Of a stretch of DNA of 64,000 nucleotides, positions 48,298-58,082 are shown in pieces; positions within the stretch are counted from its first letter, which is position 1, and each line of letters starts with the position of its first letter. A model generated the notes under the pieces. The model worked only from the letters and a program-made list of their open reading frames with translations. It was not told the origin of the DNA and did not search any database. The translations under genes and the position numbers were made by a program. Source of the DNA: Microbacterium ginsengisoli (lineage in GTDB: Bacteria > Actinomycetota > Actinomycetes > Actinomycetales > Microbacteriaceae); the NCBI RefSeq assembly GCF_000956535.1, contig NZ_JYIY01000076.1:62001-126000 (forward strand), written 5' to 3'.

Positions 48298-48336
48298 CCG
48301 CCCGGTGCCGGGCGCTAGTCGCCCGGCACCAGGCGG
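48298..48336. terminator. Convergent terminator overlapping the kdpE 3' end
   Basis: CCGCCCGGTGCCGGGCG pairs with CGCCCGGCACCAGGCGG with one mismatch over five bases. The right arm lies inside the last kdpE codons, so it serves both the AHSA1 gene and the kdp operon. Confidence 0.65.
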
Positions 48337-48992
48337 TAGCCCATGCCCTGCTCGGTGAGAAGGTGCACCGGGTGGGCGGGGTCGGCCTCGAGCTTCTTGC
48401 GCAGCTGCGACATGTAGAGGCGCAGATACCCGGTGTCGGCGATCTGCTCGCTCGCCCAGATCTCCTTCAAGAGCGTCTGCCGGGTGACCAGCGCGTCGGG
48501 GTTGCGGGCGAGGAACTCCAGCATCCGCCACTCGGTCGGCGTCAGATGCACGCGTGCGCCCGCCCGCATCACCGACTTGGCGGCCAGGTCGATCGTCACG
48601 TCGGCGAAACGCACCACCGGCTCGCCCGCGGCATCCGGTCGCCGACGCGCCAATGCGCGCAGCCGCGCCAGCAGCTCGTCGACCTGGAACGGCTTCGTGA
48701 CGTAGTCGTCGGCGCCGGCGTCGAGCGCCTCCACCTTGTCGGCCGAGCCCGTGCGCCCCGAGACCACGATGATCGGCGCGGTCGTCCAGCCGCGCAGCGC
48801 CTCGATGACCTGCACGCCGTCGAGCCGCGGCATCCCGAGATCGAGCAGCACGATGTCGGGATGCGCCTGCGCGGCGAGCGTCACCGCCGCCGCCCCGTCG
48901 GGCGCGGCGATCACCTCGTAGCCGTGCGCCGACAGCGTGATGCGCAGCGCCCGCACGAGCTGCGGGTCGTCATCGGCCACCAGAACCTTCAT
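48315..48992 (-). CDS. kdpE: Kdp response regulator
   Basis: This 225-residue OmpR-class regulator has a receiver domain (ADDD near 6-9; phosphoacceptor Asp in IVLLDLGMPRLDG; Thr/Ser in IIVVSGRTG; Lys in DDYVTKPF) and a winged-helix DNA-binding domain from about 125, with LTPTEWRMLEFLARNPD and YLRLYMSQLRKKLE. It overlaps kdpD by ATGA and is the last gene of the operon. It activates kdp transcription under K+ limitation or osmotic stress. Confidence 0.95.
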   Translation of the reverse strand: MKVLVADDDPQLVRALRITLSAHGYEVIAAPDGAAAVTLAAQAHPDIVLLDLGMPRLDGVQVIEALRGWTTAPIIVVSGRTGSADKVEALDAGADDYVTKPFQVDELLARLRALARRRPDAAGEPVVRFADVTIDLAAKSVMRAGARVHLTPTEWRMLEFLARNPDALVTRQTLLKEIWASEQIADTGYLRLYMSQLRKKLEADPAHPVHLLTEQGMGYRLVPGD

Positions 48993-51526
48993 CGCGCCCC
49001 CTGCGTCGTCGTCTCGGCGGCCGGCTGCACCGGCAGCTCCACGACCATCGTGAGCCCGCCGCCCGGGGTGTCCTCGGGGGTGAGCGTGCCGCCCATGCCC
49101 TCGGTGAACCCGCGGGAAATCGCGAGCCCGAGACCGAGGCCGGTCGTGTTGTCGGTGTCGCCCTGCCGCTGGAACGGCGCGAAGATGTCGTCGCGGCGGT
49201 CGGCCGGCACCCCGGGGCCGCGGTCGATCACCCGGATCTGCGCGAGCTCGCCCAGCCGGCTCGTCGTGACCACCACATGGGTTCCGGGTGCCGCGAAGCG
49301 GCGCGCGTTGGCGAGGAGGTTCACGAGCACCCGCTGCAGCAGCACCGGGTCGGCGACGAGCGGCGGCAGGTCGGGATCGAGCGCCACCTCGACCTCGTCG
49401 GGGCCGTAGCCGAGCTCGTCGAGCGCCGCCAGCAGGGCGCCGGCGGCATCGACCGGTGCGAGCGACACCGCCAGCACCCCCGCCTGCACACGGCTCACAT
49501 CGAGCAGGTCGGTCACGAGCATCGACAGGGTGCGCAGGCTCTCGTCCGCGGTCTCGAGCAGCTCGGCGCGGTCGGTCGGGCTCAGCCGCACATCGGCCGC
49601 CCGCAGCCCGCCGACGGCCGCGACCGCCGCCGCGAGAGGCCGGCGCAGGTCGTGGCTCACGGCCGACAGCAGCGCCGAGCGCACCTGGTCGGTCTCGGCG
49701 AGGGCGTCCGCCTCGCGTGCGGCCGCGGTCAGTTCGAGATGGTCGATCGCGGCGGCGAGCTGCGCGACGATCACATCGAGCAGCCGACGGGATGCCCCAT
49801 CCGGCTCGTCGCCGGTCAGCTCCAGCGTCGCCCGCGGCGCGCCGCCCACCCGCGCCCCGACCGGGAGCCGCGTGCACGCGGCGTTCGCGGGCGCCGGCCC
49901 GTCGGCGACATCCTCGGCCAGCACCGTGCCGCCCTCGCCGACCAGCCGCACTGCGTGCAGCCCGAACGCCTCACGGGCGCGGCTGACGAGCGCCTCGACG
50001 GCACTGTCGCCGCGCAGCACGCTGCCCGCGATGGTGGCGAGCAGACGCGCCTCCGCCGTCGCGCGCTCGGCGACCCGGGCACGCCGGGCCGCCTGGTCGA
50101 CGATGTAGCTCACCAGGATCGCGATGACGACGTAGAGGCCCAGGGCGAGCGCGTGCAGCGGATGGGCGATCGTGATCGTGAACAGCGGCTGCACGAACAG
50201 GTAGTCGAGCGTGAATCCCGACAGCACCGCGGCGAACAGTGCGGGCCAGATGCCGCCGACGAGCGCGACGATCACGACGAGCAGCTGGTAGGCGAGCACG
50301 TCGGAGGTGATCGAGTCGTCGCTGCGGAACGAGAACAGCAGCCACGACAGCAGCGGCCCGCCGACGAGCGCGACGGCGAACCCGAGCAGGCGCCGTCCGC
50401 GGCTGAGCGCCCCGCCCCGCACGCGGGGGAGGCGCAGCTTCCCGCCCGCCGCCGAGTGGGTGACGATGTGCACGTCGATGTCGCCCGAATCGCGGATGAC
50501 CGTCGCGCCGATGCCCGACCCGGTGAGTGCCGCGCTCATGCGGCTGCGGCGGCTGACGCCGATGACGAGCTGGCTCGCGTTCACGCTGCGCGCGAACTCC
50601 ACCAGGGTGTGCGCGACGTCGTCGCCGACGAGCTGGTGATAGGTGCCGCCGAGCTGCTCGACGAGTGCGCGCTGGGTGGCGAGCGCCCCCGGCGTCGCCC
50701 CCCGCAGGCCGTCCTGGCTGAGCACGTGCACCGCCAGCAGTTCGCCGCCCGCCGAGCGGGCTGCGATGCGGGCGCCGCGTCGGATGAGCGTCTCGCCCTC
50801 CGGCCCGCCGGTGAGCGCGACCACGACGCGCTCACGCGTCGTCCACGTGCCGTCGATGTCGTGCTCGGCGCGGTACTGCTTGAGCGCGGAGTCGACCTCG
50901 TCGGCGAGCCACAGCAGCGCGAGCTCGCGCAGCGCCGTGAGGTTTCCCAGCCGGAAGTAGTTCGACAGCGCGGCATCCACCCGCTCCGCCGGGTAGACGA
51001 GACCGGCGGAGAGCCGGTCGCGCAGCGACTGCGGGGCGAGGTCGACGACCTCGATCTGGTCGGCGCCCCGCACCACTGCATCGGGCACCGTCTCACGCTG
51101 CACGGTGCCGGTGATCTGCTCGATCACGTCGCTGAGAGAGGCGATGTGCTGCACGTTGACGGTCGTGATCACGTCGATGCCCGCGTCCCGCAGCTGCTCG
51201 ACGTCCTCCCACCGTTTCGCATGCGCCGACCCGGGCGCGTTCGTGTGGGCGAGCTCGTCGATGAGGGCGACCGACGGATGCCGCGTGATCACCGCCTCGA
51301 CGTCGAGCTCGTCGAGGCTCACCCCGCGGTGCCGGTCGCGTCGCAGCGGAACGACCTCGAGACCCCGGGTCAGCGCGGCGGTGGCCGCGCGCCCGTGCGT
51401 CTCGACGACGCCGACGACGACATCGGCGCCCTCGGCGGAGAGCCGGTGGCCCTCCTCGAGCATCGCGTAGGTCTTGCCGACGCCGGGGGCGGCCCCGAGC
51501 AGGACCCGCAGTCGCCCCCGTCGCAT
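48989..51526 (-). CDS. kdpD: Kdp sensor histidine kinase
   Basis: This 845-residue kinase has the KdpD N-terminal domain with Walker A GAAPGVGKT (11-19) and the conserved LAHTNAPGS, a universal-stress-protein-like domain (about 220-355), four membrane helices (about 375-475), a GAF-like domain and the kinase core. The phosphorylated His is in SAVSHDLRRPLA and the ATP lid has NLLANA, DRGPGVPADRRDDIFAPF and GLGLGLAISRG. The ATG at 51526 follows AAGGA. It senses low K+ and turgor. It overlaps kdpE and starts 25 bases after kdpC. Confidence 0.95.
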   Translation of the reverse strand: MRRGRLRVLLGAAPGVGKTYAMLEEGHRLSAEGADVVVGVVETHGRAATAALTRGLEVVPLRRDRHRGVSLDELDVEAVITRHPSVALIDELAHTNAPGSAHAKRWEDVEQLRDAGIDVITTVNVQHIASLSDVIEQITGTVQRETVPDAVVRGADQIEVVDLAPQSLRDRLSAGLVYPAERVDAALSNYFRLGNLTALRELALLWLADEVDSALKQYRAEHDIDGTWTTRERVVVALTGGPEGETLIRRGARIAARSAGGELLAVHVLSQDGLRGATPGALATQRALVEQLGGTYHQLVGDDVAHTLVEFARSVNASQLVIGVSRRSRMSAALTGSGIGATVIRDSGDIDVHIVTHSAAGGKLRLPRVRGGALSRGRRLLGFAVALVGGPLLSWLLFSFRSDDSITSDVLAYQLLVVIVALVGGIWPALFAAVLSGFTLDYLFVQPLFTITIAHPLHALALGLYVVIAILVSYIVDQAARRARVAERATAEARLLATIAGSVLRGDSAVEALVSRAREAFGLHAVRLVGEGGTVLAEDVADGPAPANAACTRLPVGARVGGAPRATLELTGDEPDGASRRLLDVIVAQLAAAIDHLELTAAAREADALAETDQVRSALLSAVSHDLRRPLAAAVAAVGGLRAADVRLSPTDRAELLETADESLRTLSMLVTDLLDVSRVQAGVLAVSLAPVDAAGALLAALDELGYGPDEVEVALDPDLPPLVADPVLLQRVLVNLLANARRFAAPGTHVVVTTSRLGELAQIRVIDRGPGVPADRRDDIFAPFQRQGDTDNTTGLGLGLAISRGFTEGMGGTLTPEDTPGGGLTMVVELPVQPAAETTTQGAR

Positions 51527-51551: not shown

Positions 51552-52166
51552 TCAGTGCGAGAGCGCGTCGAGCGCCAGGTTGAGCTCGAGCACGTTGACC
51601 CGGGACTCGCCGAGGTACCCGAGGTCTCGCGGCTCGATCTTAGACGCGACCAGCTGCTGCACGACCTGTTCGCTGAGCCCCCGTTCGCGGGCGATGCGGG
51701 CCACCTGCAGGTCGGCGTAGGCCACCGAGATGTCGGAGTCGAGACCCGAGCCCGACGCGGTGATCGCGTCGGCGGGAACGAGCGACGGGTCGACACCCTC
51801 GAACGCGGCGACGGCCGCCCGGCGCCCGGTGATCGCGTCGACGAGCTTCTGGTTGGTGGGGCCGAGGTTGGAGCCGCCCGAGGCCGTCGGGTCGTAGCCC
51901 TCGCCCGCCGCCGACGGCCGCGGCTGGAAGTACCGCGGCGAGGGGTTCCCCTCGGTGTCGAGGAACTGCTGGCCGATCAGGGAGCTTCCGACCGTCTGTC
52001 CCGACGAGTCGGTGACGAGCGACCCGTTCGCCTGCCACGGGAACACCAGCTGGCCGACCGCGGTCACCACGGCGGTGTAGCCGATGCCGAGGATCAGCGT
52101 GAAGACGAGCATCGCACGGACGGCGACGCCGAAGGTGCGCAGCGAGGTGCGCGAGAGCGTGGACAT
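51552..52166 (-). CDS. kdpC: K+-transporting ATPase subunit C
   Basis: This 204-residue subunit has one N-terminal helix (about 13-38) and an extracytoplasmic domain with the family motifs GSSLIGQQF, YFQPRPSAAG and ASGSGLDSDISVAYADLQV plus ARERGLSEQVVQQLV. KdpC acts as a chaperone-like subunit that increases nucleotide affinity of KdpB. It follows kdpB by 19 bases on the same strand. Confidence 0.95.
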   Translation of the reverse strand: MSTLSRTSLRTFGVAVRAMLVFTLILGIGYTAVVTAVGQLVFPWQANGSLVTDSSGQTVGSSLIGQQFLDTEGNPSPRYFQPRPSAAGEGYDPTASGGSNLGPTNQKLVDAITGRRAAVAAFEGVDPSLVPADAITASGSGLDSDISVAYADLQVARIARERGLSEQVVQQLVASKIEPRDLGYLGESRVNVLELNLALDALSH

Positions 52167-52185: not shown

Positions 52186-54312
52186 TCAGAAGCCGGGGAT
52201 GAGGCCGACGACCAGGTCGATCAGCTTGATGCCGATGAACGGGGCGATGACACCGCCGATGCCGTAGACGAGCAGGTTGCGGTTGAGGATGCGCGCGGCG
52301 CTCGCCGGCTTGTACGCCACCCCGCGCAGGGCGAGGGGCACGAGGGCGATGATGACCAGCGCGTTGAAGATGATGGCGCTGGTGACCGCCGAGGCGGGTG
52401 AGTGCAGCCCCATGATGTTCAGCGCCGCCAGGCCCGGGAACACCGTCATGAACATCGCCGGGATGATGGCGAAGTACTTGGCGACGTCGTTCGCGAGCGA
52501 GAAGGTGGTCAGTGCGCCGCGCGTGATGAGCAGCTGCTTGCCGATGCGCACGATGTCGATCAGCTTCGTCGGGTCGGAGTCGAGGTCGACCATGTTGCCG
52601 GCCTCCTTCGCCGCCGACGTGCCCGTGTTCATCGCCACGCCGACATCGGCCTGCGCGAGCGCGGGGGCGTCGTTCGTGCCGTCGCCGGTCATCGCGACGA
52701 GCCGCCCGCCCCCCTGCTCCTTCTTGATCAGCGCGAGCTTGTCCTCCGGGGTTGCCTCGGCGAGGAAGTCGTCGACCCCCGCCTCCGCGGCGATCGCCTT
52801 CGCCGTCAGCGGATTGTCGCCCGTGATCATGACGGTGCGGATGCCCATCGCCCGCAGCTCGGCGAACCGCTCCTTCAGGCCGTCCTTCACCACGTCCTTC
52901 AGGTGGATGACGCCGAGGATCGCGCCGATGCCCGCGGCGTCCAGGGTCGCGACGACGAGCGGGGTGCCGCCCGATCCGGCGATCTGGTCGGTGATGCGAG
53001 TGAGGGTCTGGCGGGTGTGGTCGGAGATCTCCACGCCCGCGCCGGTCAGCCACGCCGTGACGGCGGAGCCGGCGCCCTTGCGCACCGCGGTGCCGTCGTG
53101 GAGGTCGACGCCCGACATGCGCGTCTGCGCGGTGAACGGCACGAACACGGCGCCGGCCGGCAGCTCCGCACGGATGCCGCGGCTCGTCGCCAGCTCGACG
53201 ACCGAGGTGCCCTCGGGGGTGGGATCGGCGAGCGACGAGAGCGCCGCGGTCTGCGCGAGCACCTCGTCGCCGACGCCGGGCATGCGCACGAACTCGGACG
53301 CGCGACGGTTGCCGTACGTGATGGTGCCGGTCTTGTCGAGCAGCAGCGTCGACACGTCACCGGCAGCCTCGACCGCACGGCCCGACATCGCCAGCACGTT
53401 GCGCTGCACGAGACGATCCATGCCGGCGATGCCGATGGCGCTCAGCAGCGCGCCGATCGTCGTGGGGATGAGGCACACGAGCAGGGCGACGAGCACCGGG
53501 ATGCCCACCGGGGCGCCCACGGCGGCCGCGATCGGCTGCAGCGTCAGCACCACGATCACGAACACGATCGACAGGCTCGCCAGCAGGATCGACAGCGCGA
53601 TCTCGTTGGGCGTGCGCTGACGAGCCGCGCCCTCGACGAGCGCGATCATACGGTCGACGAAGGTCTCTCCCGGCTTTGCGGTGATGCGCACCACGATGCG
53701 GTCGCTGAGCACGCGGGTGCCGCCGGTGACCGCACTGCGGTCGCCGCCCGACTCGCGCACGACCGGTGCGGACTCGCCCGTGATCGCCGACTCGTCGACC
53801 GTCGCGATGCCGTCGACGATGTCGCCGTCGCCCGGGATGAGCTCGCCCGCGGTCACGACGACCACGTCGCCGAGCCGCAGCTCGGCCGACGCGATCTCGA
53901 CGGTCTCGGCCGCGGTGGCCGCGGCATCCGTCGCCGGATCGTAGGCGACCACCTTGCGGGCCGACGTCGTCGTGCGGGTCTTGCGCAGCGACGCGGCCTG
54001 CGCCTTGCCGCGACCCTCGGCGACCGACTCGGCCAGGTTCGCGAACACGACCGTCAGCCACAGCCAGATCGCGATGCCCCAGGTGAATCCTGCGGGAACG
54101 GCCGGTCCGTCCTGGTGCAGGAACGGCTCGGCGATCGCGATGAGCGTCGTGAGGGCGGCACCCACCCAGACCAGCAGCATGACGGGGCTGTGCCACTGGG
54201 TGGCGGGGTTGAGTTTGCGCAGGGCGCCGGGAAGTGCCTGCAGCACCTGTTCGCGGCTGAACGCGCGCGAACGGGGAGTCGCCTTCTCGGCGACCGGAGC
54301 GGTGGTGGTCAT
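52186..54312 (-). CDS. kdpB: K+-transporting P-type ATPase subunit B
   Basis: This 708-residue P-type ATPase energises K+ import. It carries the phosphorylation motif [13 protein letters not shown] in the actuator region ([20 protein letters not shown]), the TGDN-type hinge [14 protein letters not shown] and [12 protein letters not shown]. Seven helices are expected. The ATG at 54312 is the one that follows the kdpA stop closely, with GTCCTGATC upstream rather than a strong ribosome site, so coupling to kdpA is likely. Confidence 0.96.
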
Positions 54313-54314
54313 GA

Positions 54315-55997
54315 TCAGGACAGTCCTTCTGCCAGGGGCCCGAGCGCGAGCACGGGGAAGTAGGTGAGAGCGGTGAAGATGATCGACACGCCGATCAGCA
54401 GGCCCACGAACTGGGGGCGGTGCGTCGGCAGCGTGCCGGCCGTCGTCGGGAGCGTGCCCTGGGCGGCGAGGGATCCGGCGAGGGCGAGCACGAGCACGAT
54501 CGGCACGAACCGGCCGAGCAGCATTGCGACCGCGAGGGCAGCGTCCAGCCATCCGGTGTTCGCGGTCAGTCCGGCGAACGCGGAGCCGTTGTTGTTCGCG
54601 GCCGAGGTGAACGCGTAGAGCACCTCGCTGAAGCCGTGCACGCCGGGGTTCAGCATCGACACGTTCTCGATCTCGTCGCGGATCGGCGGGATCGCGAAGC
54701 TCGCGCCCACGCCCAGCAGCACGAGGGTCGGGGTGGCGAGCAGGTAGAGGCTCGCGAGCTTGATCTCGCGGGGGCCGATCTTCTTGCCGAGGTACTCGGG
54801 TGTGCGCCCGATGAGCAGACCGCCCACGAAGACGGCGATGATCGCGAGGATGAGCATGCCGTAGAGACCCGAGCCGGTGCCGCCGGGGGCGACCTCGCCG
54901 AGCATCATGTTGACCATCGGGATCATGCCGCCGAGTGGCGTGAACGAGTCGTGCATCGAGTTGACCGCGCCCGTCGAGGTGAGGGTGGTGGTCGAGGAGA
55001 ACAGGGCCGATCCGAGGATGCCGAACCGCTGCTCCTTGCCCTCCATCGCCCCGCCCGCGGCCTGTGCCGCCGCGCCGAGGCCCGACGCCTCCAGCCAGCT
55101 CACCGCGACGATCGACGCGAGGAACAGGGTGCCCATGACCGAGACGATCGCGTAGCCCTGGCGGTTGTCGCCGACCATGCGACCGAACGTGCGCGGCAGC
55201 GCGAACGGGATCGCGAGCATCAGCACCATCTCGAGGAGGTTGGTCCACGGCGTGGGATTCTCGAACGGGTGGGCGGAGTTCGCGTTGAAGAACCCGCCGC
55301 CGTTCGTGCCGAGCTCCTTGATGGCCTCCTGCGAGGCGACGGTGCCGCCCGGGATCGACTGCGTCTGCCCGGTGACGGTGGTGACATCGGTCCACGACGA
55401 CACGTTCTGGACGACGCCCGCGACGATCAGCGCGACCGCGGCGATGATCGAGACCGGCAGCAGCAGCCGCCAGATGACGCGCACGATGTCGACCCAGAAG
55501 TTGCCGATCGTGGTGGCCCGGCGGCGCGCGAACCCGCGCACCAGGGCCACGGCGATCGCGATGCCGACCGCGGCCGACACGAAGTTCTGCACCGCGAGGC
55601 CGGCGAACTGCACCGTGTAGCCCATCGTCTGCTCGGGCGAGTACGACTGCCAGTTGGTGTTGGTGACGAACGAGATCGCGGTGTTGAAGGCGAGACCCTC
55701 GGGAACCGCGGGAAGCCCCAGCGAGTACGGCAGCCACTGCTGCAGCCGCTCCAGGGCGTACACGAAGATCACGCCGACGAACGAGAACAGCAGCACCCCG
55801 CGCAGGTAGGCCTGCCAGGTCTGCTCGGATGCCGCATCCACCCCGATGACGCGGTAGATGCCGCGTTCCACGACGAGGTTCTTGCGGGCGGTGAAGATCC
55901 ACGCCATGTAGTCGCCGAGGGGGCGGTACAGCACGACGAGGACGAGGATGAGGGTCGCGGCCTGTGCGATGCCGGCCCAGATGGTCGCGGCATCCAT
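54315..55997 (-). CDS. kdpA: K+-transporting ATPase subunit A (channel-like)
   Basis: This 560-residue membrane subunit contains the four P-loop-like selectivity-filter regions of KdpA, such as [41 protein letters not shown] and [15 protein letters not shown]. The length and motif order are standard. It overlaps kdpF by ATGA and is followed by kdpB after 2 bases. One of the most certain calls in the window. Confidence 0.96.
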
Positions 55998-56086
55998 CAG
56001 AACTTCTCGGGGGCGACGAGGGCGACGACGAGGTAGGCGATCGCGGCGAGGGCGAGCACGGCCGCGACGATCGAGAAGACGATCAC
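55997..56086 (-). CDS. kdpF: K+-transporting ATPase small subunit F
   Basis: This 29-residue single-helix peptide ([20 protein letters not shown] and ALVAPEKF) stabilises the Kdp complex. The C-terminal PEKF is the KdpF hallmark. It starts at GTG 56086 behind GGAG, overlaps the preceding 27-residue ORF by GTGA, and overlaps kdpA by ATGA. Confidence 0.92.
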
Positions 56087-56166
56087 AGCTTCTCCACCCC
56101 CTTGGCGACGAGGGCGACGATCGCGAAGAGCGCGACGATGCCGAGGATGCAGATGAGATCGAGCAC
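56083..56166 (-). CDS. 27-residue membrane microprotein at the head of the kdp operon
   Basis: This ORF starts at GTG 56166 with GGAG six bases upstream and has one helix, [18 protein letters not shown], ending GVEKL. Its stop overlaps the kdpF start by GTGA, so it is coupled to kdpF. It is not KdpF (no PEKF ending) and not a shadow of another gene. It is a candidate extra small subunit or regulator of the Kdp pump. Confidence 0.7.
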
Positions 56167-56263
56167 GAGGACTCCAGAGGTGCGGATCCGCGAGGACGCG
56201 GGTGCCCGGTGGGGGCACGACACCCGATCGAACACCGCCCGGAGCACCCCGGACGGCGTCCTT

Positions 56264-56304
56264 ACGGAATCCATACGGCGCCCGCACGGGCACTCACGGA
56301 ATCC
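56264..56304 (-). promoter_or_regulatory. Direct-repeat regulatory site upstream of kdp
   Basis: ACGGAATCC occurs at 56264-56272 and again at 56296-56304, 32 bases apart, about three turns of the helix. They lie about 100-140 bases upstream of the first kdp ORF, in the position expected for a response-regulator site. KdpE is the natural candidate, but this is inference. Confidence 0.5.
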
Positions 56305-56352
56305 GTGCGCACGCGGCCCCACGTCCGCTGCGGCGGGCCCGACGCCCGGATC

Positions 56353-58082
<1,730 letters not shown>

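Follow-up and report, generated by a model that had tools for sequence, protein, structure and literature searches.

The Kdp pump, KdpFABC, is a model for the cooperation of a channel with a P-type ATPase and is treated as a complex of four subunits. Its solved structures come from the Escherichia coli enzyme. KdpF (PF09604, TIGR02115) is a peptide of ∼30 amino acids with one helix, which is encoded in the kdp operon and overlaps the start of its neighbour. The microprotein described here resembles KdpF in these respects, but lacks the C-terminal P-E-[KR]-F, does not match the KdpF profile and is found beside a normal kdpF. One-helix small partners are known from several membrane pumps and complexes, such as sarcolipin, phospholamban, the FXYD proteins, AcrZ and CydX. 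Sarcolipin and phospholamban regulate the calcium P-type pump, and small pump regulators are of microprotein-like size with a single helix. The likeness of our microprotein to these partners is one of mechanistic analogy, and no sequence kinship is claimed.

We analyzed a 64,000-nucleotide stretch of Microbacterium ginsengisoli DNA (the window), in which an initial annotation had located a GTG-started frame of 27 residues at 56083–56166, preceded by a GGAG ribosome site and sharing a GTGA with kdpF, which in turn overlaps kdpA. All these elements can be read in the sequence, and the strand, which had not been given, is the minus strand: the ORF runs from 56166 to 56083, opens GTG-CTC-GAT and closes CTG-TGA, and the plus strand reading of the same interval is unrelated to the microprotein. 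The features of the locus are as follows:

56256..56288, minus strand: three 11-bp direct repeats (CGTGCGG/CGTATGG/CGTAAGG, by eye), a candidate KdpE site, from sequence upstream of the operon
56172..56175, minus strand: GGAG ribosome site, 5 nt 5′ of the microprotein GTG, from sequence
56083..56166, minus strand: microprotein ORF, predicted single helix, 27 aa, GTG start, TGA stop, from sequence and conservation
56083..56086, minus strand: GTGA stop-start overlap of microprotein and kdpF, from sequence
55997..56086, minus strand: kdpF, 29 aa (PF09604, E 1.5e-6)
54315..55997, minus strand: kdpA, 560 aa (PF03814, E 5e-232)
52186..54312, minus strand: kdpB, 708 aa at its assumed start (P-type ATPase domain PF00122, E 3e-30, and place)
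51552..52166, minus strand: kdpC, 204 aa (PF02669, E 1e-68)
48989..51526, minus strand: kdpD sensor kinase, 845 aa if the start is MRRGRLRV (PF02702 match at window positions 50894–51523, and place)
48315..48992, minus strand: kdpE-like response regulator, 225 aa (PF00072 and PF00486; the name kdpE from its place after kdpD)

The TGA of kdpF and the ATG of kdpA have one base in common (TGATG, 55997). The microprotein frame stays open further upstream, giving 79 aa from a GTG at 56322; its conservation starts at the GTG at 56166, with Asp at position 3 and Phe at position 14 in 99 of 99 distinct same-genus copies. Upstream of the ORF lies a 186-bp gap (56167–56352), and the frame ending beyond it is presumably SufU-like, by recognition only. 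The 27-mer returned no Pfam family at E up to 10, PF09604 included, while the neighbouring frame (56086..55997) does match PF09604. Searches of NCBIfam and of PDB chains gave no meaningful match to the microprotein, and Rfam gave no RNA family at E up to 1 in 55800–57000. Weak matches to BcsF, ComGG, PET117 and PDB entries were judged to be due to chance.

Conservation was assessed in a same-genus set of 149 genomes, 105 of which, the window's own among them, contain kdpA. The 500 nt 5′ of kdpA were examined in all 105 loci (shorter in one, L026); three loci without a kdpA match in the short stretch (L173, L194, and L196) were positioned by the kdpA coordinates from the genome search. Excluded from the upstream tests were the repeat copies L113, L221, and L235, as well as L244, where kdpA is cut at the contig end, and L245 (genome G057), which has no kdpA. 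With a profile built from 30 of the 105 sequences, a microprotein relative was found at every one of the 105 loci, the lowest scoring 14.9 bits, compared with maxima of 7.9 bits in 2,130 dinucleotide shuffles (10 for each of 213 regions) and 1.8 bits on reverse strands. The start codon is GTG in 102 copies and ATG in 3, and the stop is TGA in all. A GGAG, GAGG, or AGGA is found 4–16 nt upstream in 66 of them, and in 88 when GGAA or GAGT is added. The window's peptide carries [MV]-x-D at positions 1–3, F14, one helix and a [KR]-G-V-[ED]-[KR]-L end, and in 150 actinobacterial microprotein sequences D3 and F14 reach 88% and 96% (weighted). In Actinomycetota, some of the conservation of GVEK may be due to a ribosome site for kdpF (GGAG) lying within it. 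Conservation shows no significant helical periodicity (P 0.25–0.58 at 100 degrees, by position range), and no binding face is claimed. In L196, from a single-contig genome (G007) and counted among the 105, a frameshift follows about residue 21 of the microprotein, and KGVEKL continues in another frame.

Within the genus, pairwise pN/pS is 0.55 for the microprotein frame, against 1.06 and 1.37 when the frame is shifted; the proportions are uncorrected and the pairs non-independent, so that the evidence lies in the contrast among frames and not in the absolute value. The corresponding figure for kdpF is 0.49, from 102 of the same-genus loci. The microprotein ORF is thus shown, at the level of sequence comparison, to be no chance frame, its protein frame being under selection. 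Reading frame and helix, whose absence from relatives the initial annotation had said would count against its proposal, are both kept, as is the 4-base overlap.

The gene extends beyond the genus. We compiled a named actinobacterial set from the best 80 of 590 KdpA relatives, a choice that leans to near kin and includes eight named Microbacterium. Using the 30-sequence genus profile, 76 of these best 80 of 590 loci score at least 10 bits (controls reach 7.9 at most), and with a wider profile, made from these 76 together with the genus sequences, 78 do so. The two loci rescued, both outside the build set of the wider profile, are L082 (Bifidobacterium; 29.5 bits) and L097 (Glycomyces; 36.9 bits). 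L101 (Actinotalea) has a degenerate C-end and scores 9.2 bits, and the profile search found no microprotein at the kdp locus of L052 (Leucobacter). A draw across the phylum comprised 296 genomes, 51 with kdpA, of which 45 gave 46 tested regions; left out were the window's own genome, one genus genome already counted, and G292, G340, G367, and G439, which offered pieces or a cut gene. Of the 46 regions, 20 score above every one of 3,700 shuffles of the whole test set, and several more contain a plausible ORF by eye. L111 and L112, which coincide with L218 and L217, stand outside this count of 46 and that of 24 given below, their shuffles being within the 3,700. In some regions, among them L254 and L255 from the same order (genomes G233 and G287), a kdpF-like ORF is present and no microprotein was seen upstream of kdpA. 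The microprotein gene is not universal in the phylum.

Outside Actinomycetota we studied 24 loci, namely 23 plasmid-borne kdp loci and that of E. coli K-12; homology at this distance rests on a 27-column model. The actinobacterial profile recognizes ORFs in Deinococcus ficus (19.1 bits), Subdoligranulum (Clostridia; 16.4), Burkholderia stagnalis (16.9), and Thalassospira (20.2), the shuffle maximum being 7.1 bits (3,700 shuffles). A second-round model, in which these four sequences and two from the phylum draw were added to the first, further recognizes Azospirillum (10.1 bits), Acidiphilium (10.7), Rhizobium (12.2), Mycetohabitans (10.0), and D. radiodurans (10.3), the last being kin of one of its members, with a control maximum of 7.6. 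Nine of the 24 loci thus carry the microprotein by score. Seven more match by place and pattern only, below the shuffle control (Novosphingobium, Bacillus badius, Acetobacter, Paracoccus, Sinorhizobium, Listeria innocua, and Niallia), and neither score nor inspection revealed a microprotein at the other eight kdp loci (E. coli, Moraxella, Acinetobacter, Lactiplantibacillus, Enterococcus, Halobacterium, and two cyanobacteria). A scan of viral contigs for further phyla gave none.

The microprotein goes with the pump. A whole-genome profile search found it in all 105 same-genus genomes that have kdpA and in one of the 44 that do not (G057, E 5.4e-7), where it is a relic of a deleted operon: behind an intact microprotein ORF come first a truncated kdpF and next, on the opposite strand, two tRNA genes (L245, G057:C8:96000-99500, ∼920–1265), and no kdpA was found in the G057 genome. 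A weak match in G026 (E 0.006), inside a 466-aa frame in a genome without kdpA, was taken for chance. KdpD was matched in 103 of the 105 genomes with kdpA; the other two, G046 and G104, are broken assemblies and retain the microprotein. Conversely, G105, G122, and G131 have a strong KdpD match and neither kdpA nor microprotein, a small hint that the microprotein follows the pump, not the sensor, from a test that rests on these three genomes, G105 being 99% complete and the other two incomplete.

The ORF sits in the kdp operon adjoining kdpF or kdpA. Throughout the genus and the named set (best 80 of 590) it comes before kdpF at almost every locus, its stop usually overlapping the kdpF start. 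Elsewhere its place varies: the order is kdpB-orf-kdpF-kdpA-kdpC in Deinococcus ficus (L118) and kdpF-orf-kdpA, with the usual first two genes reversed, on plasmid plas1 of Burkholderia stagnalis (L136), and in both loci KdpF passes the PF09604 cut-off. In L259, from the same phylum (G269:C1:96700-97400), the microprotein relative overlaps kdpA itself by GTGA, and no kdpF was found within 500 nt 5′ of kdpA. This variable placement speaks for a small partner of KdpF/KdpA rather than a simple leader, and, like the KdpD comparison, it hints at a link of the microprotein to the pump, not to the sensor.

We therefore consider that the ORF probably is a true gene, whose product would be a small membrane protein of the Kdp pump with one helix, most likely an extra subunit or an assembly or stability partner near KdpF/KdpA, a view drawn from comparative data. 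Translational coupling would make the microprotein together with KdpF and in matched amounts. The positive-inside rule predicts that in the membrane the acidic N-end faces outward and the K/R-rich C-end inward, and the peptide would bind the pump near KdpF/KdpA, acting either structurally, as an extra subunit or assembly aid, or as a modulator. C-terminal tails, often rich in P/R/A/S, extend 40 of the 105 same-genus copies to a total of 42–74 aa (e.g. L015, L192, and L175), and as such variable tails are tolerated, the C-end is probably free in the cytoplasm. The suggestion of an extra Kdp component or a regulator, made from the window's sequence, remains the best reading in light of the conserved frame, helix and overlap and of the co-occurrence with kdpA; between subunit and regulator, sequence does not decide. 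If Kdp in actinobacteria, rhizobia, Deinococcus, and a clostridium does include a fifth conserved protein, what has to be purified or co-expressed for work on it would change.

The microprotein might instead be a regulatory peptide and not a building block, dampening or tuning the KdpB ATPase or the sensor KdpD, which we consider rather unlikely from the comparisons made. Its size and single helix fit the small pump regulators, it tolerates C-tails of varying length, and many Kdp systems do without it, as would be expected for a dispensable modulator. The existence of E. coli and other Kdp systems that lack the microprotein implies that it is dispensable for pumping as such and speaks against a strict structural requirement. 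Against a purely regulatory peptide, the microprotein stays with kdpF/kdpA despite the changed gene order in L118, L136, and L259, and is missing from the three same-genus genomes that have KdpD without kdpA, two of them incomplete.

A leader ORF, serving solely to hand ribosomes on to kdpF through translational coupling or to sense a signal during its own translation, is an improbable alternative to the small partner of KdpF/KdpA that we favor. It would account well for the GTGA or ATGA terminus, which is present in 98 of the 105 same-genus copies and in 75 of 78 from the named set (best 80 of 590). The terminus is retained in 40 out of 40 same-genus copies with C-tails, suggesting that coupling is useful in itself. 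However, the helix residues are themselves constrained (pN/pS for codons 2–21 alone is 0.57, compared with 0.90 and 1.59 in the shifted frames), the overlap is absent from some relatives (L118, L124, and L076), and in L136 the relative comes after kdpF, not before it.

Still less probable is a diverged KdpF duplicate that does the same job. The two peptides are of the same size, have one helix each and are encoded side by side, and each closes with charged residues and then leucine or an aromatic residue. Yet the microprotein has no PF09604 match, hhalign assigns its comparison with KdpF a probability of 0.1–1.8% (27 columns, low power), and microprotein and kdpF coexist in most loci examined. 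A chance open frame in GC-rich DNA can be dismissed, for although the frame stays open well past the proposed start, as is common in such DNA, conservation in this very frame is far above shuffles and extends over many genera.

In a quick KdpA tree (FastTree, 128 rows), the microprotein occurs on either side of the midpoint split, and its absence takes six changes; the 15 “absent” and 13 “eye” labels were assigned manually, and L082 is marked “eye” although it later scored 29.5 bits. This pattern fits an old microprotein gene that was lost several times, in a tree that is blind to gain versus loss and has some unsure long branches. We tentatively raise the possibility that Kdp was by origin a five-protein machine (the microprotein with KdpF, A, B, and C), of which the E. 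coli enzyme would be a reduced form with one subunit lost. If so, a textbook P-type ATPase would have a component that went unstudied because it is absent from the model organism and too short to annotate.

The description of the ORF as unannotated holds for 13 of the 15 annotated plasmid records in which it was recognized by score or eye, and these have no gene at this place; it fails for two, which do have one (the gene table is incomplete). At L125 (Mycetohabitans), a 34-aa gene that matches exactly, WP_191287747.1, is named “potassium ABC transporter ATPase.” Its position and its 10.0 bits with the second-round model place it in the microprotein family, its score with the first wider model being 6.5, below the control. 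The name is unsuited to a 34-aa peptide, and the record gives no function. At L114, a “hypothetical protein” is annotated in the microprotein frame, with an earlier start.

There are likely partial earlier sightings of what, from sequence comparison, would be a new family of proteins linked to a known pump. In the kdp region of Clostridium acetobutylicum, Treuner-Lange in 1997 reportedly described kdpA as preceded by orfZ and orfY, two small ORFs with hydrophobic products. The clostridial locus L133 parallels this layout, with a microprotein-family ORF and then a PF09604 KdpF ahead of kdpA. OrfZ/OrfY, compared by description only, may thus be earlier sightings of the microprotein family. The C. 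acetobutylicum transcript is given as kdpZYABCXDE in the excerpted text of PMC5401905. An unannotated kdpF with a ∼100-nt leader appears in the available part of a Caulobacter report (PMC8552747), and this leader may hold the microprotein too. The Streptomyces studies name only KdpFABC in the excerpts available, and kdp goes unmentioned in the main text, as excerpted, of ribosome-profiling and small-proteome studies of M. tuberculosis, mycobacteria, and S. meliloti. Among the matches listed from open-licence PMC full text, seen as extracts, we recognized no description of a second Kdp peptide.

The M. smegmatis transcript starts 120 nt 5′ of kdpF, in what the excerpted text of PMC5401905 calls a long 5′ UTR worth study. 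In eight of eight loci checked (seven Mycobacterium and one Antrihabitans), the microprotein starts 74–83 nt 5′ of kdpF, and we therefore predict that the M. smegmatis “UTR” contains the microprotein. Re-read in this way, the 120-nt region, as the excerpt has it, would be a transcript within which the ORF lies.

The three direct repeats upstream of the operon look like a site for KdpE, an OmpR-family regulator, an assignment we infer by their look. CGT-N8-CGTRAGGA or a near form recurs in 79 of the 105 same-genus upstream regions, 57–59 nt 5′ of the microprotein start in 37 of these; the pattern was picked after viewing the sequences, and its recurrence is controlled by letter shuffles only. 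A loose form of the pattern (two mismatches at most) has 2 matches in the window compared with 1.65 expected, about as often as expected, so that genus-wide recurrence is all that favors the repeat box. Finally, kdpA is divided into two overlapping matches, as if frame-shifted, in two of the same-genus genomes (G011:C1:781136-782811 and G001:C5:3420875-3422538).
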